From NCBI RefSeq assembly GCF_965363235.1, contig NC_134843.1:51579535-51643534 (forward strand): a stretch of 64,000 bases of DNA, in the 5' to 3' direction. The position numbers and the translations under genes are program-made. Numbering within the stretch: position 1 is the first letter of the stretch; every line of letters starts with the position of its first letter. The notes beneath the pieces were generated by a model, which searched no databases, was not told the DNA's origin, and was given only the letters and a program-made list of their open reading frames with translations. This DNA is from Mytilus galloprovincialis. Lineage: Eukaryota; Mollusca; Bivalvia; Mytilida; Mytilidae. Below are positions 7,449 through 60,426 of the stretch, one piece after another.

Positions 7449-7501
7449 ATTTACTGGCATTACAAAAAAAGAGGAACAATCTTTGAACCATGTCTTCCTA
7501 C
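7449..7501 (+). CDS. Gene 1 start exon (codes M-S-S-Y)
   Basis: The exon is bounded by 'atcttcag' before 7449 and a strong donor (TAC|gtaagt) at 7502. The only start codon in the frame used by all downstream micro-exons is at 7490. A TGA lies two codons upstream in the same frame, which supports this start. Only four residues are coded here and the 41 nt before the ATG are 5' untranslated. The exon lies in a ~150-bp segment that is tandemly duplicated just downstream. Confidence 0.6.
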
Positions 7502-7781
7502 GTAAGTATTAACTGGCTAGTTCTCATTTCATACAAAAATCAGATTGGAAATCAATGTGGATATTGTGAAGGGTTTCTATTGTTTCGAATATACATATTT
7601 TAAACGAGCATCACGACCAGTCTTTAAACCATGTCTTTCTATATAATGTACATATGTATTTACTGGCTATAGTTGTCATTTCATTCAGAATTGAGATTTG
7701 ATTTCAATTTGGACATTGATATGAGTTGCTACTGTTTCAAATATACATATCTTACATATGTTTTTAATGAATATCACGAGG
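7470..7781 (+). repeat. Tandem duplication carrying the start exon
   Basis: Two head-to-tail copies of roughly 150 bp (about 7470-7615 and 7616-7781) share 'tttgaaccatgtctt'/'tttaaaccatgtctt', 'actggctagtt'/'actggctatagtt', 'catttcat', 'gatttgatttcaa'-like text and 'gtttcgaatatacatat'/'gtttcaaatatacatat'. In the second copy the ATG is kept but the splice donor is changed from acgtaag to atataat. The second copy therefore appears unable to act as the same exon. Confidence 0.7.
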
Positions 7782-10700
7782 GATGAAAAGAATATTGAAA
7801 GAACTGATTACGCCCCCAAACAGACAAGTTAAGACAAGGTGGGGTTCAATCTTAAGTTGTGTGCGTATGACTTTGTGGAATACTGTGTATTTGACTATTT
7901 GTTTTTTTAAAATTTCGGTTTTGATATTGTCATATGATATATGTCAAATAATAAATGTAATCAAATTATATAAAACTTATTCGAATAAACGAAATGGCCG
8001 ACGGTTCATCTTTATTTTTCAATTTCTCCCACCTTTTATAAACAGATGAGTGTATTTGGCTGTGTGGGATGTATAAGTATGTAGCCACACCCAATCTGAA
8101 TGGGAACATTAAATCCAATGACCAATGTGAGAAAAGTGACACGTTTGCATCCTTTAAAAACCCGTTGATGGCTTGTTGTATCGTATCCAAAGTATCTTAT
8201 TTTTTTTAAAATTCTGTAGTACATGTGCTTTTATTTGCCAGCCCTTCTTCCCGGTTGACCATTCACTAACCTACCATTTGGATGACTTGTCAAATTGATC
8301 TGAATATGCATGAAATATTTTCAATTGAACATAAATGAATATAAGAAACCCATAAACATTAATAGTAATGTTTCAGATACTGGGAGATGATTGGCCAATT
8401 AAACCGTCATGGAAAACGATGGTATATGTGTACATGTATACTCCTATATCAATTATATACTGGGTTTCTGCTAGATGTCCTACTTTGAATAGCTCTTTTT
8501 TCCTTTTAAAAGCTAGATCTTTACATGCAAGAATGGTATATCTGCTTTTTATGAATATATAGTAACTTTAGATAGAATGTCGTTTGTAATCTTTACACGT
8601 ACTATTTCGAATATACATGTAAGAACATGATTTACGTACTTTTTAAAGGGGCACTAGCTGTCAAATTCATCGTCACTGATTTGACTCAAATTCTCATATT
8701 TGATTTATAACAATGTAAAACATTTATCCAAACTATCAAAAGTCTAAAATAAACAATTTACAGAGCATGGGGTAGATAATATATAGGTTCGTTTCGTGTG
8801 TACTTTAGTCCAGACGCCATCTAATTAACTATCGATTTGACCTCAGATGACCATATAAGCGATGTAAACATAAATAAAGATATGAATAGATTAAACCAAC
8901 ACGTGCAATTGGATTTTTATAGGTCTGTTTGATTTTATTTTATAGATTAAAAATAGATGTTTCTCATTGCTTTTAACCGTATAAGAATGATTTTATGTGC
9001 ATCGAATTAGTAATCAAATGATTTACCGTAGTTTCACTTTCATTGTTTACATTCTTTTTCTTTAAATAACCAGTACACGTACAATGCATGCGTTGTCAAT
9101 CTCTAGCTAGGGGTTAAATTGAAGTTCACATGAATACGGCTTTAAAGAGGTCGACTCATTCACTTGCAAGTGAATAACTAATTATCAATGTTTAGCGTAA
9201 TTTGACAAAATTGACCCTTTTTGGCTGCAAAAAGCGAATTGTTATTTCACTATTTCACTTTCATTATTGATTGAACAAAAAAAAACAAACTTTAGATTTT
9301 TTATATATCTCGTAGCTAGTGCCCCTTTAAGATAATATCTTTTCTTTTTAAATAGAAGTTTGAAAATCTATTTTTATTTCTAATACAAACGTTGCATGTA
9401 TTTTCAATTGGTTTAGTAGCTTTTTGAGGCGGAAGTTAACAACATTTTCAACATTGAAATATTTGGACTATTTATAAGTAGAAACAAAAACTTTCATACA
9501 TAAATCTAGATTCGATGTCTAAAAGGTGTCACTTTACTAAAGGACATTTAATTAGTACAAAAGGAAGTTTACGAATAGATAAATGTAAAAACCAAAAACA
9601 AAGGAATATGATTTTTTTTCTTTTTATTTGATCAAGTCTTTTGTTTGATTCTTTTGAAAACAACTTTACTTTTATTTCATTTGGTATATATTTACTTTTA
9701 GTATAAACAAACTTAAGTATATAGCATAACTCTAGCAATAGAAATTGGAAATATGATAGGTGGGCTACAATCGGTTATATCTGTTATGGTTGTCAAACAT
9801 GCGAAAAAAAATTAAAAATATAAACTTATCTTATATACGGTAACATAAAAACAAGACATGGATTGAATTTTAAACAATGGCAAACATTAAAACCATATAA
9901 GATACAGTTTGCTTCAAGCATCTAAGACGTTTCTATAAACAAAAGTCCTGGAAGTCGTCTGCTACACATGTCTCGTTTTTGTGCTATTTTGATCCGATCA
10001 AAACTTTTTATCTTTTGGGAAACCTGCTGTTTTCTTGTGCCATTGTTCAATGAGAAGTCATGCTGAGATTTTTTAATGACTTTATATTCTGAAGCCGCTA
10101 GTATTCCTTTAACCCATTCTAAATAAAATATAATGCCCCCCCCCCCTTTTTTTTAATTTACGAAACTTGCATATATAGATAGTAAAGAGGTACAATATAA
10201 ACTAATTAAATTCTAAAAGTAGTTGTTTTGATTTACAAATAACAGTTTTCAAATTCTTATTTTATGGCATACAGAGCTACTTCAAATGTACATAGCTATC
10301 AATTTACTTAGTAAAATGAAGATATTGGACTAGTTACGTTTCCTTTTAGCTTTCCAATATGGGTATTATTTACAACCTTTGAGTTTCAAATATTATCTTC
10401 TACTTTAATTATCTTCTATTTGAACATCCCACTTTTATTTCTTGTTTAACCCAAGTGAATCAATTCAGTTTCAAAACAACATGCTATTTTTGTTTTATTA
10501 TCCAGTCTAGACTAAGTATCCGAAGACGTACAAAAAGTAAATCATGGAAATTCAATGTCGCTAAGACAAAGTAAAACTATAAGAAATGGAGTATTAAATT
10601 TGTTACCAAAATTCTATCATGCCAACGGATGTGTATTAATGCTAAAATCAGATTAGTTTATGTATAAGGGATTTATCTGGGCCTAGGATTGATTGATTGT

Positions 10701-13700
10701 TGGTTGCTTTACGGCGACTGGGCCTAGGAAAAACAACTGGTCTGTGCATTTGTGATCTGATTATAAAAGATCGTTCAATAAGAAATGAGGAAATGTAGGA
10801 TATATGATATATACTGCAGTAGTTTAAAAATTGGCAAATACGTGTTTTATTGATTGTACAGACATTCAATTAAGTGACTATTTTTCATAATTACACCTTA
10901 TGTAAGAATCATGGGTTTTGATTGGTTGATAGCCAGTGTATTTTTCACAATTTACTGTTATCAAATGAATATCGTTCATTTTTTAATGCCGCCGGGGTAT
11001 ATACAATAAACAGCTGCGCCATGAGCGCATGATACGCCAGTCGTTTTATGCAATAATAATAAATAGTTTCTGAGATACAGCGCAACATGTGAAAACACCC
11101 TTTTTTTTTAACAAAAAACTCAATAACTCTAAAATAAAATTTTGAATCATCACCAAAACGTATACAGATCTTAAGATTAATATAACTAAGAAGTGTGTAA
11201 AGTTTTAAGCAATAATCATAAATTGTTTTTGGTATACAGTGCGACATGTGAAAACACACCTTTTTTTTAACAAAAAACTCAATTAATGCATGCTAAATAA
11301 AATTTTAAATCATCACCAAAAAGTGAACAGATCTTGAGGTTAATATAAAAAAGAGGTGTGTAAAGTTTTAAGGTGGTATGGTGGTATAGGTGTCTTCCGC
11401 CATCTTGGATTGTAAAAAACAGAGAACCTAAGGTCCACATTTTCTATCTATCAAGTTAGCAAAATTTGATACAAGAATGCAGATATTTAATGTGCATTTT
11501 CATTTAAAAGAACCAATTTATAAGAAAATAACTTATAAGTATTAATATTTTTACAAGTGTTGATTATTTTTGGTTGTTTTCAAATGTTTTTGAATTGTCA
11601 TTTTATGTGGAGGTAACTCTAAAACAGTGCATTTTCTGAAGGATTCTACATGGAATTTTCCTATTTTGTATTTTAGCCGGAAAAAAAGTGAGGTGACCCT
11701 ATCTTTTCTTTTGATAAACCCAAAGCATTGTCTGAAAGCAATTTTTTCCCTATTTATTTTACAATTCTATCATTTTGTTTTGTGTCTTATCACCAAATGG
11801 TGTTTTTTTCCTGCATAATCTATACAAAATGTGTCATTTTGTCACAACCTGTAGCTTGAGAAAATGCGCGGTGACCTATCATTTTTATTATATTTTTGAA
11901 CATATATCAATAGATACTACGTTTTCGCAAAGTATGAACAAATTCTATCATTTTTATTTTAGACTCCCATATCACCTTAAGTAATAATCATAAATGGTTT
12001 TTGAGATACGCACGACATGTAAAAAAAACCTCCCCCCTTTTTTTTACAAAATACTCAATAACTCAAATATAAAATTTTGAATCATCACCAAAAAGTATAC
12101 AGATCTTTAGATTAATATAACTGAGAAGTGTGTAAAGTTTTAATCAATTATCATTAATCGTTTTTGAGATACGGCGCGACATGGGGAAAACACCCCCCTG
12201 TTTTAGTTACAAACCCGTAACTCAAAAAGTTTAAATCTATTTTCACCAAAAAGTATACAGATCATTTTGACCATCATAAGAAACAACAATATTAAGTTTC
12301 ATGAAATTTGGATAAGCCGTTCTCAAGTTACAGTGCGACATGTTTACGCCGGACAGACACCGCACTGAGGGACAGACGAACGGATGGACGGACGCCGGAC
12401 ATTTGTATACCATAATACGTCCGTTAAAATTTTGACGAGCGTATAAAAAGGATATGCCCTTTTTACCCTCTCTGCCGTGGTATTTGCCAAAAAATACTGG
12501 ACTGGACGCTTGTAACTTCACGGTCATCAATGCGATTTGAAAGTTAACATTCGGTGTAATTAAACAGATATGGCATGTTCTTGAGGGGTATCTGCGAAAA
12601 ATACCAGTCTTGAGAATGAATTTCCTTTGCCTTACGGCTCGCGAAATTTAACATTCTCTCGACTGGTATTTTTCGCAAATACCCCTCCTTAACATGATAT
12701 ATCTGTTCAATATACCATGCCATTTTAATTGACGCTGCTGCTTATTTTCACATGTTCAAAACAACTTTGTATGTCATTATTGCTATTAAATGATATCATG
12801 GTACCAACTTAAAGTAAATAATTTGATACAGTTTGTTCTAGATCTTAAACATGCTTGCTTTTATATTGGCTAGTTTTAGTTAGAATAACAACATGTAGTT
12901 ATATTTGTAGACTTATCTTATAGTTTTTACAATTTTACGCAAATCCATTTTTTACAAAGCTACTCATGCGACTGTCATACAAGTGAGAGGTTTATCGCTA
13001 TACAACCAGGTTCAATCCACCAGTTTCTACTTTTGAAAATGCCTGTACCAAGTCAGGAATATGACATTTGACGTCCATTCGTTTGATGTGTTTTATAATT
13101 TGATGTTGTCATTTGATTAGCATGATTAGGGACTTTCCGTTTTGAATTTGCCTCGGAATTCAGTATTTTTTTTAATTTTTCTTTTCACCATGAGAAACAT
13201 TTTTTAATACATGATTCATCGTTTTCATCATTTGTATAATGAATGAGTACAAAATTCCATAGGAAGATATTTTAGGAAAAAATAAATGTATTAATTCATA
13301 GGGTATTGGTTCATTGGTACATGATTTATAACCACCTTTCTAAAATTGTTCCATTTATAAATTTAAAAATTACATTTTGTATAAGATACCGTTAAATATA
13401 TCACATTTGACAAATATTTATAAAGTTCGAATTTCTGACAAGTCTTTCATAGTTATCCTTTAATACATACATTTTGTTTTTTGCGCAGTATATGAGAAAG
13501 TCAACATACCAAAAAGATTTCAACAAGAGGGTAAGTTTCGAATATATATGGTGTCGGTTCCGAATAGTAATACATACTTTTATTTTAACAGTACAGGAAA
13601 GAATCAACATATAGACATGATTACAACAAAGGAAAGGTTAGTTCTGTGCAGTGTCTTTGAGTGTTTCTACCTCTTGGGAATCTTACTTCAATGTTTAGAT

Positions 13701-16700
13701 ATTCTAGAAAGTAGAGTTACCTGTTTGTACTAACGTTTCCAATCGTTTCGCCTATGTATACACACCGTCTGCATTTGCTTCAGTGGCAAACCAATGTGGT
13801 AGTAAATATGGGTTGTTACTAGAAACCTCACCAACAATCCAGAATCAAACTCAATAATATTCGTTTAAAAAGTCTTCCATCTAATCTTTGTAACCACTTC
13901 GCTTCAACCATTTTATTCTGAGTGATACTGCCACTCAGATTTTCTACTCCTATTTTATATGTTTTGTCTGTTTTGTACAATATTCGTACACATTAGGACG
14001 ACAAACAAGATTCGCTGCAATTTATCATAATTTGACCTTTAACCTTGATTCTTATTCTCCTCTCCAATTGTTGCCTCCCCCTTTTTATATAGAAATCCAC
14101 ATTACCAAAAAGTTGAGTGAAACATCCTAAACGAACTGTGAAAATCAAAGCAGTATTCAGATGATTTAATTTTTGTACACAAAGCATAATTGAAACAATA
14201 AAATAAAATAATTATATTTCTATAGCTGAAAATTGTGATATAGTATATATGAACGTATTACTTTTTTTTTATAATTATCACCTGCGTGTTGCTTTCTGGT
14301 TTTGTGGTAAATAACATTTTAATGGTATTCTACTAATATATTTTTTCGATATATTTATGTTAGCATTCTAATACTTTAACAACTAATTGAAAAGGTTTGA
14401 TATTCAATGTAAATTATGGTTTCAAGCTAATTGGAGATAAGATGATACAATCTGCATTAATTTAGACTCTTAAATAAAACAATAGGGCCTCAGGTTAATA
14501 TATACAACAAACATTTCTTTATACATCTATATTTATATAAATATTTTCAACAACACATACATACTATAATCATCCTAAAAAAAGTAAAACAACAACTTTG
14601 TGTTTTTGTATTAATTAAAATATTCAATAAAAAGTTGACATGTTGTAATTGAAACAAAAAGTAGCAATTATACATCTCAAATAATAATGGTTTATCCGTG
14701 GAAGTATTATGTTCAATAAAGGACTTCTATGGTTTTTGTAAATCCTGTATAAATTGCAGAAACATGTGTCATTTAGTTAATTTCTGTGTTGATTATATAT
14801 TTGAGAAAATGAATATCCTTCTTTTAGGCACCAGAATATGACCGACATGGTATGATAAGAAATATGGACTACAACAAGGTAAGCCACGTGAAAAAGGACC
14901 GTCTGTAGAATAAAAAAAAACGAAAACTTCATATTAATTCGTCCGAAGCGATTTTCTGATTTAATAATCACCCGGAACCTTCATAGCCAGTTATTTAACT
15001 GCCAAGCATGTACAGCATCCGCATTTTCGCAAAATAAATAAAAACATTAATAAAATATTATCAACAAAATAGGGAAAATCGTTTACAGACAACTACAAAC
15101 ACAACTCTGAAAATTATATGGACGCCATCACGAGTTTGTTGCTTGTTATAAGTTATCTATTTCACATATTACGACGGCTATGTTTAATCGCAATTCCTTC
15201 TACTTTTTATTTATTTGAAAACTTCGAATAAGACATATGACTGAGTATGTGTCTCCATGATAGTCATCAAATGTACCAGAATTATAATTTAGTACGCCAG
15301 ATGCGCGTTTCGTCAACATAAGACTCACCAGTGACGCACAGATAAACATAGTTAACTTATAAAGCAAAACAAGTACAAAGTTGAAAAGCATTTAGGACTC
15401 ACAATTCCAAAAAGTTGTGCCAAATACGGCTAAGGTAATCTGTTCCTGGGATAAAAAAAGTCCTTATTTTTTTCTCGAAAAATTCAAAGTTTTGTTAACA
15501 GGAAATTTTAAAAAATGACCATACAATTGATATTCATGTCAACACCGAAGTGCTGACTACTGGCCTGGTGAAACACTCAGGGACGAAACGTCCACCAGCA
15601 GGGGTATCGACCAAGTGGTGAGCAACTTGACGGGTGCCACAGATCATGCAGGATCTGCTTTCCCTCCAAGAACATTTAAAACCAACCCTTGTTTTTGTTT
15701 GGTTCGTGTTGCTCAATATTTAATTTTCTATGGTGTGTTTGTGGACTATTGTTTGAATTTGGTAGTTTTTTCGTGTTTTTGCAATGGCATCGCTAGTTGG
15801 TCTTCGAATTGTGAGTTATAATATCCCTCTGGTATCGGTCTTTTGTATCTTTTTTAGAAATCAGAATAGCGTGTGAAAAGTTGCATTTCATTTATCTCAA
15901 TTGCAATTATAAAGATATATCAAGTATAAGCAAAAAGGTAAAACTGACCGAAAGTAAAATTAATGGACAAAAAGAAGAACGGACCGAAAGCAACGGACAA
16001 AGAGAAAATTATCGAACAAAAGCAAATCCGGACAAAAAAGCGAATTTCGGATAAAAAACACCGTATCAATTGAGCTTACAATAAAGATAAGTAGAATGTT
16101 GCGATTTAATGTTTGTCTACAAACAAAACTAAATATCGTATACATTTTTCATTCTTGCATTGTATAATAAATGCAAATTAAGCAAACTGAATTAACAGAC
16201 TCCATCGCAAGGCGATAATAAACGACTTACACATGTAATTGAAGTATTCACTTCGTATTAACTAATAAAACTTATTTCGTTATATTTCAGGCAAAATTTG
16301 ATGATCCGATGTGGCAGAGAGGTAGAAATGAATCGTCTGAGGTATGTGTAGAATTGAGAAAAACTGTAACCCCAGCCTTACTTTTGCAGCAAAGACGCTA
16401 AAAATAAAAAAACAAAAACAAACATAAAAAACGTGAACATAAAAAATAACAACAACAACAACAAAAACTCTTACAAAACTGTATAAATGTATGTATGTTA
16501 ATAAATAAAAACTATCGGAAAACATTTCAAATGTGTTATTACAATTCATATATGAGCACGGAAAAGGTTATCAAATATTTGTTTTAACATTTTATGGAGT
16601 TCAAATGTTTGTAAACTCTTTGTAACACATGTAACTTGGGTGCATTATAAATCACCAGTAAAAGAACGACAGAAAATAATGCCCTTTCCCACCTCAAAGT

Positions 16701-19700
16701 CAAAACGAAAATAAGAGCCATCAGTAGTTTATGTTCACCGCGTTAGTATCTCCTGCTATACATACATGTACACATTTTCCAATGTTAATCCTCATTTATT
16801 CAAATTGCCAAAATTTGGATTAGGACACAACCGAAAATGTTAGATTACTCTGCTATCTAAAAACCACGCAACAACCACTACACAGAATACTAAGGAAATA
16901 GATTCATTATAGTGCTGGAAAGTTTTAGTGAAATGGAAATAAGCATTATGTCATAAAAAAAGTCAAAAGCTAATTGTTTATTTTAATAAAATAATACACT
17001 TTGGTATATTAGATTTTGAAAATGATTTCAGCAATATGAAGATCGACTCAGAGAAATGTCCAAACATCAGGTGAGTAACTAATACAAATAACTTACAAAT
17101 AACAAATTAGGGTGTTTGCAAACTTAACAAAGTTTAAACGCTATTGGAAATGGGTTTGCAAATATGTTCCCAATATATCCATGGAAATTTGTGATGAATG
17201 CTAAAATATTCGTTTGTTTGGAGAATATACACTTCAAAAGTGCAATAAAATTGATTTAAACTGAAAGTGGCAAACATAAATTATGATAATAATGCAACGT
17301 CGATAAAAAAGATTACTATTCAAAAGAAAATATGCTTTTACAATCTTGTTTAACAAACAAATATTCCTGACAGACAAACATTATGTTAACAGCAACTTTA
17401 AATATGTTAATAAGCTATAACTAGAGGCTCTAAAGAGCCTGTGTCGCTCACCTTGGTCTATGTGAATATTAAAGGAATCAGATGGATTCATGACAAAATT
17501 GTGTTTTGGTGATGGTGATGTGTTTGTACATCTTACTTTACTGAACATTCTTGCTGCTTAAAATTATCTCTATCTATAATGAACTTGGCCCATTGGTTTC
17601 AGTGGAAAATGTTAGTAAAAATTTACAAATTTTATGAAAATTGTTAAAAATTGACTATAAAGAACAATAACTCCTAAGGGGGTCAATTGACCATTTCGGT
17701 CATGTTGACTTATTTTTAAATCTTACTTTGCTGAACATTATTGTTGTTTACAGTTTATCTCTATCAATAATAATATTCAAGATAATGACCAAAAACAGCA
17801 AAATTTCCTTAAAACTAACAATTCAGGGTCAGCAACCCAACAACGAGATGTCCGATTCATCTAAAAATTTCAGAGCAGATAAATGTTGACCTGATAAACA
17901 ATTTTACCCCATGTCAGATTTGCTCTAAATGCTTTGGGTTTTGAGTTATAAGCCAAAAACTGCATTTTACCCCATGTTCTATTTTTAGCCATGGGGGCCA
18001 TCTTAGTTTGATGGCCGGGTCACCGGACACATTTTTCAAACTACTAACCCAAAAGATGATTGTGGCCAAGTTTGGATTAATTTGGCCCAGTAGTTTCAGA
18101 GGAGAAGATTTTTGTAAAATATTACTAAGATTTACGAAAAATGGTTAAAAATTGACTATAAAGGGCAATAACTCCTAAAGGGGTCAACTGACCATTTCAG
18201 TCATGTTGACTTATTTGGAAATCTTACTTTGCTGAACATTATTGCTGTTTATAGTTTATCTCTATCTATAATAATATTCAAGATAATAACCAAAAAGAGC
18301 AAAATTTCCTTAAAACAAGTGAAACTGTGAGCTACTGCTCACTGATGATACCCCCGCCGCAAGTGGATAATATTAATAGTGTAAAAATATGCAAGTGTTT
18401 GGTAAACAGGAAGTTGTCAAGTGATGAATCTGAAAACGCATCACACGGTATAGCTGACTTAGATAAACCCTGAAACCAAATTTCAGAAATCCTTGTATTG
18501 TAGTTCCTGAGAAAAATGTGACGAAAGTTTCATGGGACGGACTGACTGACAGACGGACTGATGGACGGACTGACGGACGGACTGACAGACAGAGGTAAAA
18601 CAGTATACCCCCCTTTTTTTAAAGCGGGGGTATAATTACTAATTCAGGGCCAGCAACCCAACAACGGGTTATCCGATTCATCTGAAAATTTCAGGGCAGA
18701 TAGATCTTGAACTGATAAACAATTTTACCCCATGTCAGATTTGCTCTAAATGCTTTGGATTTTGAGTTATAAGCCAAAAACTGCATTTTACCCCATGTTC
18801 TATTTTTAGCCATGGCGGCCATCTTGGTTTGATGGCCAGGTCACCGGACACATTTTTCAAACTACTAACCCAAAAGATGATTGTGGCCAAGTTTGGATTA
18901 ATTTGGCCCTGTAGTTTCAGAGGAGAAGATTTTTGTAAAATATTACTAAGATTTACGAAAAATGGTTAAAAATTGACTATAAAGGGCAATAACTCCTAAA
19001 GGGGTCAACTGACCATTTCAGTCATGTTGACTTATTTGTAAATCTTACTTTGCTGAACATTATTGCTGTTTACTGTTTATCTCTATCTATAATAATATTC
19101 AAGATAATAACCAAAAACAGCAAAATTTCCTTAAAATTACTAATTCAGGGGCAGCAACCCAAAAACGGGTTATCCGATTCATCTGAAAATTTCAGGGCAG
19201 ATAGATCTTCACCTGTTTAACAATTCTACCCCATGTCAGATTTGCTCTAAATGCTTTGGTTTTTGAGTTATAAGCCAAAAACTGCATTTTACCCCTATGT
19301 TCTATTTTTAGCCATGGCAGCCATCTTGGATGGTTGGCCAGGTCACCGGACACTTTTTTTAAACTAGATACCCCAATGATGATTGTGGCCAAGTTTGGTT
19401 TAATTTGGCCCAGTAGTTTCAGAGGAGAAGATTTTTGTAAAAGTTAACGACGACGACGGACGACGGACGCCGGACGCCGGACGCCGGACGCCAAGTGATG
19501 AGAAAAGCTCACTTGGCCTTTTAGGCCAGGTGAGCTAAAAAGGGTTGGGACAGCCTCTACAATAAATGAACTAATACATAAAGCTAAATCCCCTGTTTCA
19601 TTAATTAAATAAACAAATAGAGTACCATTTGAATCAGGAATATGGCAGTTGTATTTCACTTTTTCCGTTGATTGGTGGTATATAATTTTGTCAGTTTGTA

Positions 19701-25700: not shown

Positions 25701-28700
25701 TTCTTATAATGTAATAACAATTGCTAGTATGAATTGAGGCAACAACTACAGTAAAAACTGGGCGACAAATACAGAACAGTTAAATTTTATCATGATTTCT
25801 GCCTGTATTATTTTACAAAATGGTTTAGTAATGTTTACCAGCAAGTCTAGTTTAATTATTGTTAGTAGCTACGTTTTAATATTTTGAGTGATTCGTAATT
25901 TGACTAGACGATTTATGGTTACTAATTAACGTATGGGATAATTTATAGTTAAAGGTTGTAAGATTACCATCTTTTTCTATCTTTAACAGACGAAATTTAC
26001 AAAAAAAAGGATTCATCAGCAAAATACTCTCCTCGTTTACTGATGTTTTTCAGCATAGTGCCTTATATTATATTGTTTAGAAATACTAGAATTATTTATT
26101 GTGTTCATACCTTTTCCATTCCTTTTCAAAGTGGAAAATTGGGTTTTTGTTTGATATTTTTTGAATGTCAGAAATAAGCAGCCAATGTTAATTACAACTT
26201 TTATAATATTATCATTATTTATAGGTGACGATGTAATTTTCTTTGATGTGTTATGTTGTTCTAATCCTGATTTGTTTAATCGTTTTCTAAATTGCAAAAG
26301 AACTTCTTTATATTGAAAGATGTATTAAACTCAAACAGTGCAAATTTGGATCATAATCAAATTAAAATAAAAAATTTCGATTTTATATAGAACGTCATGA
26401 TGTCAGTGAACATATTGAACCAGCAAAAGAAATGAATTTATCTTTATATAAAATTAAATCTGTGAGGACTGAACAAAAATGTTAAATTTTTACTGGTGAC
26501 ACTTTCTTACCTTTCATGTAATTTGAGGGAAATGTGTGACCTGTAAATGTACAGGCAATTAGGGAGTTTTTTCATAGTTGGACCTTGACCATTCATAAAC
26601 AGTCGTTGCTTTAAATCCCATATCTGCAAGATTGAAATAAAAGAGACAAGTAATAAAAAATGCTAGCAACACGAAACTGCACTGATAACCAACGATTATG
26701 TCATACATAATCCACTGAAAAGTTCCAACGTAAATATAGTATTACCAAAATTTGATATGTTACATTATTAAACCCTACAAATTGATCAGTTTAAATAAAC
26801 ACATGATTTATTTGCATTCCAGAAAAGAAATGATATGTATAAATCCAAAGATTATGTCAACAATCGTGCCATGGCAGATCATGTGATAGTTGATGAAGAG
26901 GTTATCGTTCTTTCTAAAATCTATTCTATTATATAATACATTAACACATTCACGTTATACTCAGCTTGTATTGGACAAAAGTTTACCTTTATTAGCCTGT
27001 TGGTTTGATACCAGGAAAATAACTAACAAGTTTAATAATGAACCGTCTCCGTATTTATATTAACATTTTAATATTAATTATAGGTATTCAATTCATAAAA
27101 ATGCTGCTCTTAAATTCAATAAAAGACACATTTTTTTGTTTCCGTTACATGGTTTAATTTTGTACGAAACTAACCTACGTCATTTAAAAGCATTTCAAGA
27201 TCATAGAATTTTGAACTTCCCTTACCAAAGAAGCAACCCTATATTTTAGCATTGTAAGTTTATTTTGTGCAAACAACTTTGCTTTTTAAAAATCGTGAAT
27301 GTATTTTTTTTAACTGCTTGTGTGAAGCTTAGTAACAAGGGTAGGGCAACATGTGATGGTCACTTGCTTAAGTTTGGTGTAAAATTTCTAAAACAGCATT
27401 TATGTCGGTAATCAAATGTCAAACGTTGCATTTCATATGAATCTGTCTTTCTGATTGGTTGTTTATTCTATGTCTATGATTTGAAACTTTATGCTGCTAT
27501 TTATTGAACCGATTTTTGCTTCTCCCACTTTTTAATTTGAAAACTTAATCGAAATGCCTAGATTCTATAAACAATGTTTGCTGTGTACAATACATATCTA
27601 ACTTTCCTGGAATGCATAATTTTAACAAATACTAGTATTATTAACATGCTATAACCGAATTAACATCAATGACATGTCAACTTATGTAAGTACAACCATA
27701 CCAATTGACATTCAAAAGTACCACTACCAATACATGATGGCAGATAGCTATCGACCAACATATATATTTCAGTGCATGGTCGTTTTACTGATTATCTTGT
27801 ATTTGAAATCATGACGATAACATTTTTCGAGTTCAGATCTATACGACTACTAGCAAGACTTGTCACAATAACAATAGAACGACTGTAAATCACATGCAAA
27901 ACCGGAAATTTATGTACAATACAGACAATTGGGAAATCTCTATCGACAAGGAAGTAGTGCTTGTCCACAATATGATCTAGCTACTGTTTTGATATTATAA
28001 AAATTTGAATGTTATATTTCTGAATTATGTTTATATCAATTAGGGCTACGCTGAGATTGGTTTTTTATTGATTTCAAACGGAAATCAGTATTAGTCTTAT
28101 AAGTAGAATAGTTAGCTAGTTCATACTTTTGGTTATATTTCAATTTTTATCGAACTAACAGAAATGATGATGACAAATTTTTAGACTAGTGAAAAAAAAA
28201 ATAGAGGATCAACCTGTTGTATAATATGATGAGTTGTCTTTTACCATGTAAATACATGTAACTAGAAAGTAAAATATAGCGTAATACGAAACTTAAGTTC
28301 ATACTTTTTATTTATTATAACAAATATGTAAAACGTTAGTAATTTTGTAGTCAGTTCCTTTACCTTTTTATCTTTTTTTATAAGAAAAACTGTATTAAGG
28401 GGATAATTTCCAGTTTAAATTACTATATAACCAGACTACTCAGAAATGAAATATTTTTATTTTTATTTTCTTACATAGTATGACCGATACAGACCTACGC
28501 AGAAAGATTACGGAGATGTAAGTCTGGTTTTGTATGTTTTGTCTGATTTATTGTAGAGAGAAGTTGTATGTTTACATGTGTATTAACTTATCTAGACGGG
28601 TTAATATAACAAATTCATTTTATACATTTTTATACTTACAAATGCATCGTCTTTGAATCAAGAAGACGACTAGTACATAGATTTACAAGTAAACGAATGA

Positions 28701-31700
28701 GGATCTGAAACGGTCCTAAATGACTGAACAAAAAATCGTTTTAACATTTAAAAAATTAGTAACTGTGATAAATTTAGTACTGTTAATACTGTTTGCTTGC
28801 AGTCAATTTTAGCCTATATTTAGACTTTTCAGTATATGTAATTTACTTGTAGACATCAACATCAAACTGAATGATCCGAAAAGCTACTAAACTGAGGTCT
28901 AAACATTGAATAAAAGACAGAACATAACTGAATAACTAATTTTCAAGACACTCAAATGGTGTTAAGATCAAAATGAGTATTTAACAATGTTTAAGGCTAA
29001 AATATTTTTTCTTTATTGTATAACCAAAAGTACAATATTACGCAAAAACTGCATATCCACTGCCAATTCGGCATGTTGTTAATAAAAAATGTTCTTAGTG
29101 TAGAAATTTAAAGATGTAAATAGAACGCTTTCATGCATTATTGCACAGATTCTTTTAGTCATTAAGTATTTTGATATAAATAAGTATCTTCCTTCACATT
29201 GATGTGTCCCCTTAATATGAAGTGCATTTTTCAATAGAAAATTTGTCTCCGAATTATGATTATTTAGATTGTTTCATCGGCATTCATTTGTTAAGTTTTG
29301 TCTCATTTCAGTTTGAAACTACTCCTAAACTAGATAACATGGTGAGTTATATTTTAATTCTCTCGTTATACGTTGCACAAGTTATAGCTGTTAAAATGCT
29401 AAAATACGTGTAAAAAGATGTTTTAAAAATTAATCAATTGTCGAGGTCATAGAATTATTCCCCATTTCAATAAGTCTATAATTGTTTATATAGATAGACG
29501 CAAAATGTACCGATATACAATATTGAGTTACCGTTCTTTTCAGAGGAGAATCGTATCAAATCAATTCAATAAATATTGAAGTATTTTGAAAGATAAAAAA
29601 ATAAAATATTTTTTTCTATTTTGATTTTTATTAATTAATTACTTTTGTGTTTTCAGCCGAAACCCTACAGAGGACAGTTTGATCGACAGGTGAGTTTGTT
29701 TACAATGTTGCTTTTATCAATTTTGACACAACACATTGTGTTTGTTCGAAAATTGACCAATATGTCAAAACCTCTTCAATATCATAATTATGAGCAATCA
29801 GAATGAAATGATCTATTTATTTGAGAACGTTCACTTTTTTTTAAAAGATGTCTATAGGGAATATCATAATTTACAGGAAATTGTACATACGGTGTTCAAC
29901 CTTTTGTTTTGACGTTTTTTGGGGTAGTCATTAATTTTTATAAATCCTTTTTTTTAACAAAAAATGCCAATAATAGAGAGATAATCTGTCCACAACCTTA
30001 CGAAAAGAATACATACAGTCTTGAATATTTCTAAAAAATAAGACTAAATTATGTTAAGTTTCTCTTTGGTTAACGGTTTAGGGTATTCATTGAGTTTCAT
30101 ACTACAAAACCAATGATACAAAGATTAGCTGTAACCCACCACGTAGAATAGTTTAAATTATCATCGTGTGTATTTTTCGTATACTAGCATAGAATTCAAC
30201 ATTTATTGATAATTGAATTGAAATAATACTTGTAATTTGTATTGATGTTATTACTTAGTACTTCCAAAGGTATTTTCATTTCGTATTAATAAACCAATAC
30301 AGGTTGACGCATTCCAAAACAGGGTAACCTGCTATACTCATTATTTGGTCTAATTAAAACACAGTTTTGAGGCATAGTTAAGCGTGCAAACACTATTAAC
30401 GGTGACGGCCACATAATCAAGTGTGCAATCATTATGAAGGGAGACGCGAACAAACTGTAAACCAACATTTTTTCGCTGAGACTTCATTTCGCGATTGGCT
30501 CTTTCTACATGTATCCCACTTCGCGGCGATTTAATTTCGCGATTTTTCAAATTTACTTCATGCAGGCAGATAAGGAGATATCCATATATACAGTTTTCGT
30601 GCTATTCTTACTCCTGAAAATAGTTTGCTTTTGAAAAAAAGTTGGTTTATAGTAATCATGGGTGCAATACAATGAAAGGAAGCGGGTTCATACGAATACA
30701 TATGTTTAAAAAGAAAAGTTACATATTATTTATGGAAAAACATGAGTAGATGTAGGATTTATGTAAAGTTTCTGATGAGTGTAGCATTGCTGAGCAAGAG
30801 AAAATGTAAATTGTTAATCTGATTGGCTAATATCAATCAGAACACGTATTAATGACAAATCCCAAATAAGTTTTGAGAAGTTGACATTGATGAATTTAAA
30901 ATTTACGAGATATCATGTTTATTCAATATTATTGAAAAATAGGTTAGTCGTAATAATTAGTATATTTAAGGAGTAGGTTCAAGAACGGTGTATTTGACTC
31001 ACGAATTCCGGGAACTTTAACTTTAGTAATAATAATAATCGTTTATCGACCACTACTTTGTAAGAGCAAACAATTTATAAACCATTTACTGGATAACTTA
31101 TATTTTGAATTGAGAAAACAAAATAGGAAACCGAAGTCTTATGAAGATTCTAATCATTGAAGTTTCAGAAGAAAGAAGTGAATTAGCTTTAATACCTTTA
31201 GACAACATTTGTAGGCATGGTTTTGTAACCAATCAAATGGAAACAGTTGGTGAACAGACATTTTTGATGAAGTTGACAGTCAATAAAATTATACCATGCT
31301 GACATGTCGTTTTGTAACTTCTCTTTTGTATTACTCCGATTAAATCCTATATGCAGAAATAAGTTTCAAAACAGTGAAATTATCCCTAATTTTATGTAAT
31401 ATCATAATGATGTCATATATTCCGGAAGTCATATACTTTAATTGACACATAGATAATTAATAAGCATTCAAAGTCCGGTTGGGATGTCTGAGGGACAAAC
31501 AAAATATCTGATTCCCATGAACAATCTTTAAAGTTTGTTTTTAAAAAAACTGCATTGCTTTGCGTAATGTAATTAGCTAAACGTAAACTTATATGTTATA
31601 TGTAATGTTTGAAAATAATCCTCAATAGCATAGGTTTAAGGCGTTGTTAATGAGGGTAAATGAAGTAAAAGCTTCGTTCGAACACAAGTTAAAGAATTAT

Positions 31701-34700: not shown

Positions 34701-37700
34701 AGGACTAACCATTCTGAAAGGCTGTGATGGATGATTAAGTATGTAACCACGTCCTTTTTCATGAACATTCAGCTTGTTACGAATTCTTCTTACCAAACAT
34801 ATTTTCATTTGCAGAATAAAGTCCACATTTACCAATCAACTGTTTGATCAACAAACAACACATCCCATTTAATTGGTTTAATTAACATATATGTCAAGTA
34901 TTTGCCACTGGAAATTAAACAAATAACAATCATTAGTAATGCGAAGAAAAACACGTGTAGCGATAAATTTTATTATAGAATATTATTTGATAATTATTCA
35001 GTTCTTGTTTTTGGTCTCATCATCATGTTTGTTTAAGGATTTTGTTTTCTACATTAGTTAGGCCGCTGGTTTTCCTCGTTTCAATTGTTTTACATCTTGT
35101 CATGTCGGAGCATTTTATCGTGTTCTATACGGTAAGGGATTTTTCCTAGTATAGTTGCGTACATCTGATCATTTCATTATTTGATCACTTTAAAATTGTT
35201 TTTTTTTTTTTTTTTTTTTTAAAGATTTCCTTTTCCTATTTTTAAGGGAAAGGGTGCAATCACAACGTTTTAAATCATATATATTTATATACTAAACCGC
35301 TAACGGGATGGACCGTACTTGATTGTCAATGATGAAATATAATCTTTCAATCAGTTTCATTGAGGTCTGGAACTAGTATGTCAGTAACTGCTAGTAGTCC
35401 TTTGTTCATTTATGTATCATTGTTATTTGTGTTATGTTCTTTTGTAACCAGACATCGGACTTGCACTTCTTTAAAACTGAGTTTTTGCGTACTGCTATGT
35501 GTTTTTTTACACTACATTGGTCAGAGGTATAGGGAAGGGTTGAGACCTCACAAACATGTTTATCTCTCCCGCTTTTTTGCGCCTGTACCAAGTCGGGAGT
35601 CGCTGGCATTTGTTAAGCTTGTTTTGTTTTTTTTTTTCATTTTAGTTCCATTAAATATGTTTTGGAGTTTAGTGTGAAGTCTATTTTCACTGAAATAGTA
35701 CACATTTTTTTTAAGGTGCAAGCTGAGGACCACTTCCGGGTGCGGGATTTTTTTTCGCTGCGTCGAAGACCCATAGGAGAGCTTCGGCTGTTGTCTGCTC
35801 TTTGGTCGGGCTTTTGTCTCTTTGACATATTTCCCATTTTCAGTCTCAATTTTATAATTTAATGTAAAATTCTTTTAATATTTTAAGACTTCAGGAAATA
35901 TTTCATTCGAATGACTTCTTCGTTTGTCAAATACATGATATTCGATGTTCAACTTTATATTTATTGACCTTGGAAATTAACGTACAAATATATAACCAAA
36001 AATCATAACATTAGATATTGAGTGCCCTTTACATGTGACTGAAACGTTTAAACTCACAAGAATATAAATTATGTTTACTTTAGTCGTACAAATGTCATAC
36101 TATTCAAATAAAATGCTTCTATGTAAACCTAATATGTTTTGAGATTACCTATAAAATATACCATATACAAATAAACGATAGGTGAACAATTTTAAATGAA
36201 ATACCAAAGTATGTATATTCTGTACGATGTGTCTATAAGAAGAAACTGAAATGTATTTGCATATACTTATATCTTTTATTCCAGAAAGGAATTACTCTTA
36301 TAAGGTTCAAGTGGTTTACGGAATAGGAATATTTATTTTGTTATTATTTTATTATGGTGACGGGGATATATTGTGAAATCGGTGGTGGGGTTTTGTACTT
36401 TTGATATGAATATTTTCAATTCTCATAGGCTTTAATTTCAATATGAATTTAAATATGCTTTAAATGAGAGATTTTACGCTTTTTGTCAGTAAAATAGTTT
36501 CTTTTGACAAGTTATTTAGAATTTTTCAAAAGGGATATTATATTTTCATTTGAGATAAAAATTTAACAACTTTATAAGATTACTATAAAGTTATAGAAAG
36601 TTTGCCTTTTAAATATGAATTTAGTTTGAATAAAGAAAATGTTAAACTATATTAATGTTATTTAAAAAAAATACGTAAGGGAGATAATCACAAGGTATTC
36701 TTTATTAAGCATAAACTTTTGTAGGTTAGAGAACAAAATCTGTCACATGAGATATCGACTCATGCAGTACCACCTCCTCATGTAAGTTATCACCAGTTAT
36801 CACCATGTGAATAATGGACCTAATTTAGTAAACAAACTACATGTATAGTATTAAACAATCGATGTTGCCTGACTGTGTTTCATTTTTAAATGGAAGGAAC
36901 AATTATAACACAATATTCGTCGTCCAGTCTCGTCAAATGTCCGTTTTTCTGCCCGAATCTCTTCCACAGAAAACAAAATATTTTTCAATTTTTTTTTTCG
37001 GTAAGGAGCGACCATTAGATTTTATGGAAGGTTCCATGATTTGGGAAATAGATATGCTGGGTCTGTTTAAAAATAAGAACATTACATTTCAATAGGATAA
37101 CAAACCCAAATTATTGAAAAATTTGAAAAGATAATTATCCTGAGGAACATATGGTCTATTTTTTTTATATATTGCTGCGCCTCTGTTGACAATGTTTTCT
37201 CAAGGTAAAAACTTGCTTTAACACCCTCTTGGCTATGTGTTATTCATATACTATAATACTAGAACGTTCTTGTCTACTTACGTACAAATGTATACACCAA
37301 GCTCAAAATACGTGACCTGCTGATGTAGAAATCACGTCTTTTCAATCTTGCATTTAGTGGGTAAAAATAATGAAGACAAGTTCTCAACAACAGCATTTTT
37401 TATGAATTATAAAGCGTCCCCTCCATTAAAACGATAGAGTGAATGCAATTACTAGGAATTGCCAAAGTACTTCTTTAACCATGCTAATGATAAAAGCAAA
37501 ATTATATTATTGTTGAGCATAAAAAATTATTGCTGATTCAATACCGCGATCAAAAGTAACAGCTTTTTGTACAAAGATTGTTTAAAGTTAGGGTACTGTA
37601 CTAATAAAGTAGAAAATATGTTGCATGCGTCAGTAGAAGCTAGAGAATCTAACAATATCATGCTAGAGAGACCATTTTGCAGAACTTCTTTTAGCAGTTT

Positions 37701-40700
37701 AAGTGTCAAGTGTTTATTTTTATTAGGTCCGCCTTTTTGTCATTTGTATTGTTTCAGACCATTGTTTTAAATGCCATTGAAAGGGCAGACAATTGTAACA
37801 GTTACTAACTTGAAAAGTAGGTAGAATGGCCTTTATTTTGGTTAAATGACGATTACCAAACAATGCAATCTGACAGTTTTGTTGGATGCAGTGAATCCCT
37901 GAAACCATACATGGGTTTGAACGCTCATTTTTAATTATTGATTATCGAAATACTAATACTTCGAGGTTCTTGTGAAATTGACTGTAGTTTTCAGTATGTT
38001 TTTCTGTTTTATTTAGCAATGTTTGGGTTGTTTCTAATCTGTGTATGACCTGGATGCATTTAAAACCTTAAAATTCGTCGAAGTATTTTGAGTTTTATTC
38101 TTACATATATGAGGTGACTTCTTAGTGTTAGACAACCAAGAGACATTAATCCACTTTTGTCTAAATCCTCATTACTTTTTATTACTAATCAGTGTATAAA
38201 AGTTAAAGGACGGGTGTCAACATTGGAGAAGAAAATGAAAAATTTTGTCCTGCATTTTTTTTAGCTGTAATCTCTGTCCTGCCTTTTTATTTTTCACTCT
38301 GTTTGGTCCTACTTTTTTTTTTTTTAGTTTATCCTGACTTTTTTTACATAAATTGTCGTCCTGACTTTTTTTTTTTTTGGCAATTGTCTCATCCTGCCTT
38401 TTTTTTTACTCAAAACTCCTGTCCTGCCTATTTTTTTCAAATTTCATCCTAGCCCCCCCCCCCCCCCCCCCATAAAAATCAAATGGTAGCTCCCTTATCA
38501 TTGTTGTTTGTCTTTTTGTTGTTTTCAACATTGTGTTTTATTTTTGTATTGGATTTTATTTAATCTATGTATCTGCTCTCTCAGTCATGTACATGTAATG
38601 TAAGTTAAACGATCCTTTTGTCATCAAGATTATTCATTGACTTACGTTAAACTTGGTTATTTGTAGATTGATTACAAGTCGACAGGAAACATTGAACCAG
38701 TGAGTAAAAGTTTTGTTTTTATAAACATAAAGCAGTTGTTAACATGCGATAAAATAACGTGCATCTTTGAAAACCAATAAAAGAAGAAAATACAAAACAA
38801 AATGTGGCTTATAATAGTGACTACGCATTGGTCAAGAGGAAACAGCGGACGTAATGAAAGCGACCACACTAAATAACTCATTTTGTTAGCATGGTTTAAT
38901 TTTCTTTACCTTGTTCAGTAGATTGGTTAAAAAAGGAAAGATAAAAACAAAAATAACACACACAAACAATGTTTGAATGAAGATGCATAGAATTATGGTG
39001 CAAAATGATTATAGTTAACAGAGCCTCCAATTTTACTAATTTTAAAGAATAATTTTATTGCCAAAGGAATCAACTAATTTTCATATTTCTGATCCCATAT
39101 TTATTTTATGTTCGTGCTTTATACACAATCTGCAAAGAAATTAAAATATTTTTAATTTTTTTTTTTATCATATATGTTAAATTTCTATCAGTGATACAGT
39201 ATAAAAAAGTATGAATGCATAACCACAACACATTTCACCAAAAGCATGTATATGTTCCAGACCGTATGAGTATTTGGACCGTACGCGTACGGTCTGGACC
39301 GTATGCGTATATTTTCAAAATACGCATACGGTCGGACCGTACGCGTACGGTCTAACTAATATTAAGAAGTTGGTCACGTTTATCAGATACAAATGTATAT
39401 AACAGATCAACATAGCTTACATCTCAAATTAATGTAAAAAGTTCAATAGTAATTGAAATAAAACAAAATAATGTTATAACTATTTTAAAAAATCACGTTT
39501 ATTTAATCTGTTAATCTCCTGTATTTAGCATGTCAGTAATTCATATATTGAAGCCAAGTATGCTAATTAAAATTGAAGTTATCGGAAGTAAACTTAGAGT
39601 GGGAGGACAATCGTTTTAGAATATTAAGGAACTTTACAAAAAAAATGCAAAGCAACGTGCATGAACAAATTATGTTAAGTAGTCGTAAAAAAAATATGAC
39701 GTTCTTTGTGGAAGTCAGTGTCACCTTGAGTACCAAAATAGGAATCACGGATATAAAAATAAACACATATTTAATTTCAATTGTTCGCTTAATCATTTCA
39801 TCCATATACATGTAATAAAATCAATTTGTATAACTAAAAATAATGATTTTGGTAAATATTTGTTTAAATTTAACCAATATGATCCCAAAAACATCAGCTG
39901 GACCGTACGCGTACACTCATACGGTCCGACCGTACGCGTATGGTCGGACCGTACGAGTATACGTATACGGTCCGGACCGTACGCGTACGGTCCAAATACT
40001 CATATGGTCTGGAACATATACATGATTTTCTTTATTTTACGTTTATTCTTTATTGTTATATTCTGATATATATGTCATAATGATATTTAACCACATTTCC
40101 TACACATTTAGGTTTCTAAACCGGAGAGTGGAGTTTACCTTTTCATCAGAACTCACAAGGATGCTCTATCAGATATAAAGACAAGCTTTCAGAAACACAA
40201 AACAATGTTGAACCAGAGTGGGATGTTGACTGGAATATCAACAAGGGTACGCACTATGTTTGTTTAATTTAGAACCATGAGAAGGTGGAGAGGAGTAAGG
40301 GAAAATTGGAATGCATCGAAGTAGGAAACAGGAGCCAGGGGAGGAAAGTGGAAGAAGGGGCGGGTATCGGAGGATGAAGTGATTGCATAGAAATATTCTA
40401 GTTAAAAAAAAAAAGCTTTATAACACGTCTCTTTATTCCTGCTTGATTTGTAAACAAAACCAAGGTCTCACAATGTTTCGTGCATTCAACCAGCACAATA
40501 ACACAAATTAATTTCGCACACACTTCAGCTAATTAGATACTATGTATACGTTTAATAGAAATTATAACAACGATGATGGCCGAGTGGTCTCAATAGTTTT
40601 TAGTAATGCATCACTTGCAAGTCAAAACTCGGGTTGTGAGGCGAATCCCACAGTGTCAGGTACGCTCGACTCCATTCTCAATTGACTAGGACGGTTTTAC

Positions 40701-56490: not shown

Positions 56491-57280
56491 TTAATCCGAA
56501 GTGCACTGGCGACCGGGGACAACGCCTTTTCCGAAAGTTCTGTCCAAATTTCTCATCAGTCGTCTCGCTTTTGATTTCATTTCTTCTGGCACATTCCCTG
56601 AGCAGCAAAATTTTAACCATTTATAAAAGTTTTCTGGAATAGTGTAATCCGAATCCTTTTCGCGAAAAACATGAATTGTTGAATCGAGATTTTCTTCTTT
56701 CATTTGCCAATAAAATTTCAGCAAGAGGGGGTTTATTTGTCTGTCTCTAACCCCTCTTGGTCTCAGTGCATTGAGAGCCTCCTTTTCGTTCAATGCAAGC
56801 ATATCCGGACTTGTTTTCGGATCATATTTTTGAAGCATTATCTCCAAAATGTTTTTGTTTATCTTATCTAAAATTCGCTTTGCCTCTGTCTGTATGTCTT
56901 CATCGGTATGATTTTGATATGTACGTAAAAAGGCATACGATCTGGATTTTGGTGTAAATGAATTTTCTTCGTCTGCTAACTGTAAGTCAAGGTGTTGTAG
57001 CTGATTTTTAATGGCCTCCGTATTCAGTCTTTTGAGCATAGGATGAAGATTCTTGGTGTTGAATTTAGTTTTTCGGATGGCTGTTATATCATCTTCGTCC
57101 GTTATATCTTCGAATTTTACATCCGATGGGTACTTATTTGGAATTTCTTTCATGATACCTTTAACAACTTTGTGTTGTCGTTTGTACCGTTTTGTCGATT
57201 GTTTCTTGTCATGCGCACATGTGATCTCTTCGTAAACTCTGTCTTGAAATGTATCAAGTAGATCATTTTCTTCCAAATAC
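56491..57280 (-). CDS. Gene 2 terminal exon (charged helical C-terminal region)
   Basis: 790 nt, entered with two bases of a split Lys codon. The acceptor (minus strand) is 'ttctatag' just before 57280 and the stop TAA is at 56493-56491. The ~262 residues are rich in Lys, Glu, Asp and Asn with predicted helices (for example EIMLQKYD, LLLKFYWQMKEENL). No known domain is recognised. EXD1 proteins also have a C-terminal extension after the nuclease domain. Confidence 0.8.
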
Positions 57281-60413: not shown

Positions 60414-60426
60414 GGTTTACTATCAC

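Follow-up and report, generated by a model that had tools for sequence, protein, structure and literature searches.

The window analysed here, a stretch of 64,000 nucleotides (nt) from the mussel Mytilus galloprovincialis (contig NC_134843.1, positions 51,579,535 to 51,643,534 of the forward strand), carries on its + strand a gene whose coding span extends from position 7490 to 43290 and whose first part is divided into many small exons. We consider it probable that this is a single Mytilus gene in which two promoters lead onto one constant 3′ end (40112-43290, coding for two predicted ferredoxin-like domains), yielding a long form with an alternatively spliced, disordered arm and a short form with a coiled coil. 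The upstream promoter would give rise to the long form, in which an arm of ~220-320 residues, encoded by symmetric phase-0 exons mostly <70 nt in length, precedes the ferredoxin-like domains, and the downstream promoter would give rise to the short form, in which the coiled coil takes the place of most of the arm.

Exon structure and its agreement with database proteins

Within the portion of the window inspected for exons (6500-46000), 20 small coding exons (E1-E18, E20 and E21), placed by eye and then by script, occupy 7490-30323, 36725-36781 and 38667-38699. Each is 12-78 nt long, divisible by three and in phase 0, with a GT after all 20 and an AG before every internal one. A first-pass annotation made from the sequence alone had described about 19-21 such exons between 7490 and 38699, and this description is confirmed; it overlooked the symmetric exons Ea (8377-8421) and Eb (25578-25664), both identified via isoform peptides, as well as E19 (32684-33130). 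In the long-form exon list all 23 junctions from E1/Ea through E22/E23 are phase 0, and exons of the arm can therefore be skipped or swapped with the frame untouched. The E23/E24 and E24/E25 junctions, which lie inside the folded domain, are phase 1.

A protein search with the provisional exon join returned 14 proteins, the best of them from Mytilus coruscus, M. edulis and M. trossulus, and six database proteins were split into the peptides of the window's exons. The RefSeq isoforms among such proteins are model transcripts, many of which may be combinations rather than molecules observed whole. Complete tiling, from first to last residue, was obtained for four of the six: P0001 (M. coruscus), P0002 and P0004 (M. 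edulis isoforms X14 and X23) and P0005 (M. trossulus LOC134721431, isoform X4). All four have a normal start and leave zero residues over, with 2-12 substitutions relative to the window (7 in P0001, 2 each in P0002 and P0004, 12 in P0005), and each of the 20 exons is represented in at least one of them. Because these proteins tile exactly, the exon borders are correct to the codon and the frame is kept on skipping. P0003 (M. edulis) tiles from E3 onward only; its start consists of E1 and E2 read in another frame, with E2 prolonged to 13550, 41 nt short of E3, and we take it for an annotation error. The short form P0006, 73% identical, has diverged too far to be tiled.

Given how small the exons are, and how weak the splice sites of several real ones (Ea, Eb, E14 and E18), one might take them for open frames that happen to lie between an AG and a GT, without any gene. 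A scan for non-overlapping open exons of 12-90 nt, divisible by three, was run over 7401-38800 with generic splice-site weights and compared with 40 dinucleotide shuffles. At a donor/acceptor minimum of 6/6 it found 10 candidates on the + strand and 2 on the − strand (shuffles: mean 0.9, maximum 3), recovering 9 confirmed exons. The corresponding figures were 8 and 0 at 8/5 (mean 0.3, maximum 3; 7 recovered), 16 and 5 at 6/4 (mean 3.0, maximum 7; 12 recovered), and 24 and 10 at the loosest setting, 4/4 (mean 7, maximum 11; 12 recovered). Several real exons carry weak sites, and the scan alone is thus insufficient to recover every exon. With + strand candidates exceeding both the shuffles and the opposite strand, and with proteins of three species tiling exactly, which already refutes it, a chance origin retains practically no probability. 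The coding exons are as follows.

7490..7501, +: E1, first coding exon of the long form (MSSY); in 4/4 tiled isoforms
8377..8421, +: Ea, 45-nt cassette ILGDDWPIKPSWKTM; present in P0002 and P0005, skipped in P0001 and P0004
13489..13530, +: E2, 42 nt, YMRKSTYQKDFNKR, with Mn-like motif, alternative to E3; among the four tiled, P0002 only
13592..13636, +: E3, 45 nt, YRKESTYRHDYNKGK, with Mn-like motif, alternative to E2; P0001, P0004, P0005
14828..14878, +: E4, 51 nt; 4/4 tiled isoforms
16291..16341, +: E5, 51 nt; 4/4 tiled isoforms
17032..17070, +: E6, 39 nt; 4/4 tiled isoforms
20057..20089, +: E7, 33 nt; 4/4 tiled isoforms
20909..20950, +: E8, 42 nt; 4/4 tiled isoforms
22954..22992, +: E9, 39 nt; 4/4 tiled isoforms
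23240..23269, +: E10, 30 nt; 4/4 tiled isoforms
23506..23535, +: E11, 30 nt; 4/4 tiled isoforms
23832..23876, +: E12, 45-nt cassette; present in P0001 and P0002, skipped in P0004 and P0005
24848..24874, +: E13, 27 nt; 4/4 tiled isoforms
25578..25664, +: Eb, 87 nt, SKKKIVFKLPHIQDGKYGFNLIGGPFISR, in place of E14 in P0005 (isoform peptides and tiling)
26823..26900, +: E14, 78 nt, weak donor gttatc; P0001, P0002, P0004
28479..28517, +: E15, 39 nt, carries TQKDYGD of the YG-type motif; 4/4 tiled isoforms
29312..29341, +: E16, 30 nt, gives the F of the YG-type motif; 4/4 tiled isoforms
29657..29689, +: E17, 33 nt; 4/4 tiled isoforms
30303..30323, +: E18, 21-nt cassette VDAFQNR; P0001 among the four tiled, also P0003
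32684..33130, +: E19, alternative first exon of the short form (MDPQWK..., coiled coil, then IEMHEGNFKPY); short-form proteins P0006, P0015, P0016, P0042
32888..33130, +: internal form of E19, 243 nt, from an in-frame acceptor within E19; P0005, between E17 and E20
36725..36781, +: E20, 57 nt; missing from the short form P0006
38667..38699, +: E21, 33 nt; 4/4 tiled isoforms
40112..40246, +: E22, 135 nt, phase 0-0, opens the first predicted ferredoxin-like domain
40937..41168, +: E23, 232 nt, phase 0-1, first predicted ferredoxin-like domain
42223..42459, +: E24, 237 nt, phase 1-1, second predicted ferredoxin-like domain
43199..43290, +: E25, last coding exon, with the TAA stop at 43288-43290

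Exon 1 lies in a tandem duplication (7467-7598 and 7602-7750), whose two copies align with a score of 69, a value that reaches at most 26 in 200 shuffles. The second copy keeps the ATG and reads AT, not GT, at the donor position, which suggests that of the two copies exon 1 is the one that survived. About two copies of a 159-bp unit with 85% matches (11043-11372) lie in the long intron that separates Ea from E2, and the intron before E22 holds an element (39240-40029) resembling a miniature inverted-repeat transposable element, in which the arms of a 72-nt inverted repeat, 94% complementary, are separated by 646 nt and accompanied by palindromic ACCGTACGCGTACGGT units. Beyond the gene, on the − strand, lie a 270-residue open frame without a Pfam match at E < 0.1 (56491-57303) and an exon of a neighbouring gene of 3′-5′ exonuclease type (60159-60416; DNA_pol_A_exo1, E 1.9e-4, 21.7 bits, below the Pfam cut-off of 23.6).

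Splicing alternatives, the second N-terminus and the folded domain

Across the four tiled isoforms 15 of the 20 exons are constant and five vary (E2, E3, E12, E14 and E18). P0001 is without Ea, E2, Eb and E19; P0002 includes Ea and E2 and leaves out E3, Eb, E18 and E19; P0004 is without Ea, E2, E12, Eb, E18 and E19; and P0005 includes Ea, E3, Eb and the internal form of E19 and leaves out E2, E12, E14 and E18. The isoforms accordingly differ in whether Ea and E12 are included, in the choice between E2 and E3 and between E14 and Eb, and in having E18, internal E19 or neither. It had been proposed that any subset of the exons could be joined; this holds for the frame, yet of the 20 only these five vary among the four tiled isoforms. 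E2 and E3 are probably mutually exclusive, since the 61-nt intron between them appears too short for splicing. In the M. trossulus isoform the peptide of E14 gives way to that of Eb, which contains GFNLIGGPF and resembles none of the other small-exon peptides; GFNLIGGPF may be a separate binding motif.

E19 opens with an ATG, and its frame is closed upstream just before 32651 with no AG in between; it can therefore serve as a first exon. Related coiled-coil starts occur in P0006 and P0016 (mussel-type), P0015 (an M. edulis paralogue), P0042 (Crassostrea gigas-type) and P0145 (scallop-like), and an alignment of E19 with the N-termini of P0015, P0042 and P0145 has 22 invariant positions, including HSAxL and IExHxGNFKP. 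Given two kinds of N-terminus, we infer two promoters, one for the long and one for the short form.

In the AlphaFold2 model of P0001, residues 1-249 all have a pLDDT < 50 and the chain is folded from residue 250 to the end. The arm encoded by E1-E21 comprises 245 residues in this protein, and the symmetric small exons thus coincide with the part predicted to be disordered; E22, although symmetric as well, marks the start of the fold. The first-pass annotation had also proposed a folded C-terminal domain, which the structure prediction supports. The predicted structure and fold searches point to a tandem ferredoxin-like fold with the feature of the dimeric alpha/beta-barrel superfamily, as in DUF1330 and related proteins (PDB 2pgc, 3mcs and chlorite-dismutase-like enzymes), but identity is 5-13% among the matches listed and enzyme activity is not implied. 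At the Pfam gathering score of 23 bits, DUF1330 (PF07045) has no match in P0001 or P0005; it scores below this cut-off in P0006 (16.5), P0007 (18.0), P0011 (17.2) and P0013 (18.5) and passes it in the Saccostrea cucullata isoform P0012 (33.6 bits), and PF07045 is annotated in the database on several oyster matches. Unlike the mussel gene, the oyster orthologues encode the C-terminal tandem domain in two versions, used alternatively (P0012 and P0013; C. gigas-type P0074 and P0098). One of these matches DUF1330 and the other has no match above the cut-off, so that in oysters alternative splicing reaches the folded domain; within the window no second version was found.

Between the window and P0001, 5 of 245 arm residues and 2 of 231 domain residues have changed; for P0005 the counts are 10 of 322 and 2 of 231. 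Divergence within Mytilus is low, and in the arm it runs at two to three times the rate of the domain. Across genera the arms are difficult to align.

Bivalve relatives and flatworm micro-exon genes

A C-terminal profile search found 135 proteins, 120 of them listed, and a further protein search found 87, all listed. As these searches depend on five-residue words in common and restrict length, they do not imply absence beyond the groups listed. The gene has homologues in other bivalves: among the matches listed (14 of 14 in the initial search, 120 of 135, and 87 of 87), those shown with an organism name come from mussels, oysters and scallops, all of them bivalves. Family genes include C. gigas LOC105326232, C. 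angulata LOC128187089, C. virginica LOC111133666 and LOC144617525, Ostrea edulis LOC125664304, S. cucullata LOC134244914, Pecten maximus LOC117337344 and Mizuhopecten yessoensis LOC110450814; in M. trossulus, LOC134721431 is the same gene and LOC134701723 a paralogue. As judged from these proteins, the same plan is common to mussels, oysters and scallops: a start motif, a spliced arm, a YG-type motif and tandem C-terminal domains, with IExHxGNFKP in many forms. No paper on this gene family was found among the PMC articles under Creative Commons licences, the literature covered here; subscription journals lie outside it.

Listed isoform numbers reach X17-X40 in 11 named genes: X40 in C. gigas, X37 in C. 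angulata, X32 and X26 in C. virginica, X24 in S. cucullata and X23 in O. edulis; X25 in Mizuhopecten, X21 in Pecten and X17 in Argopecten; X23 for the same gene in M. edulis and X19 for its paralogue. They are lower in M. trossulus (X4, X10) and S. echinata (X3), and Ylistrum has none. When nine gene groups were compared for the presence and absence of blocks, oysters were found to lose many arm blocks of 5-76 residues with unchanged flanks, as expected from phase-0 exons. Several splicing events are mixed and not separable (the Argopecten linker, the C-terminal versions, and E2/E3 in Mytilus). The C. gigas-type sequences show 25 patterns in 34 sequences, a few of them added by shortened starts, and among eight long-form lgn contigs (1.5-1.8 kb) one cassette is missing in two and each C-terminal version occurs in four.

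The exon layout invites comparison with the micro-exon genes (MEGs) of flatworms, the precedent that had been named for it. A working definition applied to tapeworms (PMC7653826) calls for at least seven exons, at least half of them micro-exons (<70 nt, divisible by three), with a run of at least four; counting coding parts only, the mussel gene has 26 long-form exons, of which 20 are micro-exons, with a run of 14, and thus falls within this definition. The P0001 and P0002 models have 23 exons with 18 micro-exons each, in runs of 12 and 13. Schistosome MEGs consist mainly of exons of ≤36 bp (PMC8293314), a length to which 9 of the 26 mussel exons conform, too few for 'mainly'. MEGs are further described as encoding secreted proteins with a constant signal peptide (PMC10526429). 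No such peptide was seen in the first 35 residues on hydropathy, without a dedicated predictor (best 11-residue mean ≤0.18 in six mussel-type proteins and ≤0.61 across all 14 tried). Skipping of micro-exons, a schistosome MEG feature, is apparent among the isoform proteins. The term also appears in a rice survey (PMC6600660).

Like flatworm MEGs, the mussel gene thus strings together short exons with lengths in multiples of three, has long introns and keeps its frame on skipping; it differs in its longer exons, its folded domain, its second type of N-terminus and the lack of a visible signal peptide. It has schistosome-like exon logic and does not appear to be a member of the schistosome MEG family. 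The precedent holds for the layout (20 of 26 exons) and is not supported for varied secreted proteins, as no signal peptide is seen and 15 of 20 exons are constant in the four tiled isoforms. A schistosome-style system of secreted variation, serving for example defence or a host-like interface, would draw on the shared exon logic and on the faster divergence of the arm; we nevertheless hold it to be very improbable and already disfavoured, as the start is hydrophilic, the small exons diverge little in absolute terms between Mytilus species, the folded domains are of an intracellular type, and the protein searches match two related Mytilus genes and no large family.

In titin (PEVK), troponin T and elastin, too, a disordered or elastic segment is tuned by skipping short symmetric exons, as in the mussel gene; these proteins are not known to be related to it in sequence and have other roles in the cell.

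Short motifs and the role of the protein

The minimal Mn signature is given as [TS]-[TS]-X(4)-[YF] in PMC10973386, and a T/S-6, F/Y-12 rule in PMC8144581; STYRHDY, STYRHDF, TTYKHDY and STYQKDF match both. Of 145 family proteins, 138 carry an Mn-type motif within their first 60 residues. The seven exceptions are five forms with a coiled coil, the aberrant model P0003, and P0116, which starts unlike its relatives. In Mytilus the motif is located in the alternative exons E2 and E3, and one is retained in each of the four tiled isoforms; for SAXO6, PMC13087473 reports at least one Mn motif retained in all RNA isoforms. Whole arms of 10 representatives contain 1-3 matches each, against 0.18-0.69 under shuffling. 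Four scallop genes have two or three matches, unevenly spaced, and in the two Mytilus arms tried there is a single match each and no repeat array at ~40-residue spacing. A YG-type element, [PST]T[YQ]x[DE]YGxF, is present in 140 of 145 family proteins, and its TxxDYG resembles the SNYG consensus [ST]-N-X-X-[ILVY]-G minus the N. A third element, IE[ML]H[DE]GNFKP[YW], occurs in 94 of 145 and is optional, being missing from 50 of the 138 long forms.

The Mn-type and YG-type motifs may point to microtubules, which we regard as a lead and not as a result. The protein could be a ciliary or centriolar microtubule protein whose N-terminal motif binds the tubulin lattice in Mn fashion, with the YG-type motif as a second, SNYG-like contact and the spliced arm setting the reach; we count this among the possibilities, at well under even chances. 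It accords with the fit of four motif variants to the signature, the early position of the motif in so many family members, arm counts above shuffling, the SNYG likeness and the retention of one motif in every tiled isoform. The short [TS][TS]x4[YF] unit within a disordered chain also recalls the Mn-motif proteins SAXO1/2, MAP6, FAP363, SPM1 and SAXO6/MDM1. The seven-residue signature, however, is weak and low in information, and the motif copies are all homologous and therefore count as near one observation. SAXO-type arrays are multi-copy, whereas each Mytilus arm tried has one copy and is joined to a folded tandem domain. There is no Pfam SAXO match and no relevant PDB match by sequence, and no ciliary protein appears in the best 50 matches of each fold search (in one, the best 50 of 1114). 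The P0001 model is without a helix at residues 9-15 (pLDDT < 50), which has no bearing on the bound state.

A nuclear RD/RS-like protein in RNA processing is a different and distinctly unlikely alternative. Arg, Asp and Tyr make up 10.9, 11.2 and 8.9% of the residues in the 22 small exons, oyster arms have SPxR and RDxSP stretches, and the oyster model P0051 is named zinc finger CCCH domain-containing protein 13. That name is attached to a single isoform of a gene otherwise called uncharacterized, and Pfam scans of 13 family members found no RNA-binding or zinc-finger domain. The charged, Arg-rich style of the peptides, which the first-pass annotation had taken as a common trait, is present but partly forced by the splice borders: R, K, Q or E is the last residue ahead of the GT in 15 of the 22 small exons.

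A further doubt, which we think unlikely to be correct, is that the exons are real and the isoforms mostly reflect noisy splicing or over-prediction of gene models, with the protein working as essentially one form. The constancy of 15 of 20 exons fits it, as does the fact that the RefSeq isoforms are models. An E18-like heptapeptide is present in some long forms and absent from others in both Mytilus paralogues (in the second as MDSFHNK, in two of five long forms), coiled-coil and long forms stand side by side in mussel and oyster-type sequences, and the short oyster-type contigs back one skipped cassette and two C-termini, all of which argue against noise. Several points weigh against a single gene with two promoters and a tuned arm as we read it. 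Its isoform evidence comes from RefSeq models, many possibly combinations; with only five of 20 exons varying, diversity in the mussel gene may be modest; and the P0003 model contains E2 DNA, in the other frame, together with E3. The GATATAAG at 32611 is only a promoter look-alike, the short form's own promoter being deduced from protein starts, and P0015 is the only coiled-coil form assigned to a named organism. The role of tether, finally, is one that we derive from architecture.

Under the two-promoter reading, the protein would be an intracellular tether or adaptor whose constant contacts are the C-terminal domains and the two short motifs present in nearly all long forms. Splicing would set arm length and accessory motifs, and promoter choice would exchange the arm for an oligomerising coiled coil. 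The switch to a coiled-coil N-terminus is seen in mussel, oyster-type and scallop-like sequences. More speculatively, and with doubt outweighing confidence, the gene may encode a microtubule-binding, probably ciliary or centriolar, bivalve protein with an arm of more than 20 symmetric small exons, in which splicing and the coiled-coil switch tune a tether from tubulin to scaffold; if so, a free-living animal would be using a micro-exon gene for intracellular mechanics, not immune evasion.

The analysis also points out a bivalve gene family that is uncharacterized for all its many database entries. In the literature found, micro-exon genes are treated mainly for parasitic flatworms, where they vary secreted proteins. 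If free-living bivalves have a conserved example that lacks a signal peptide, the same exon logic would be seen to be capable of tuning an intracellular disordered arm, and the gene would offer a compact case for testing the rule that symmetric exons lie in the disordered part of a protein and phase-1 junctions in the folded part.

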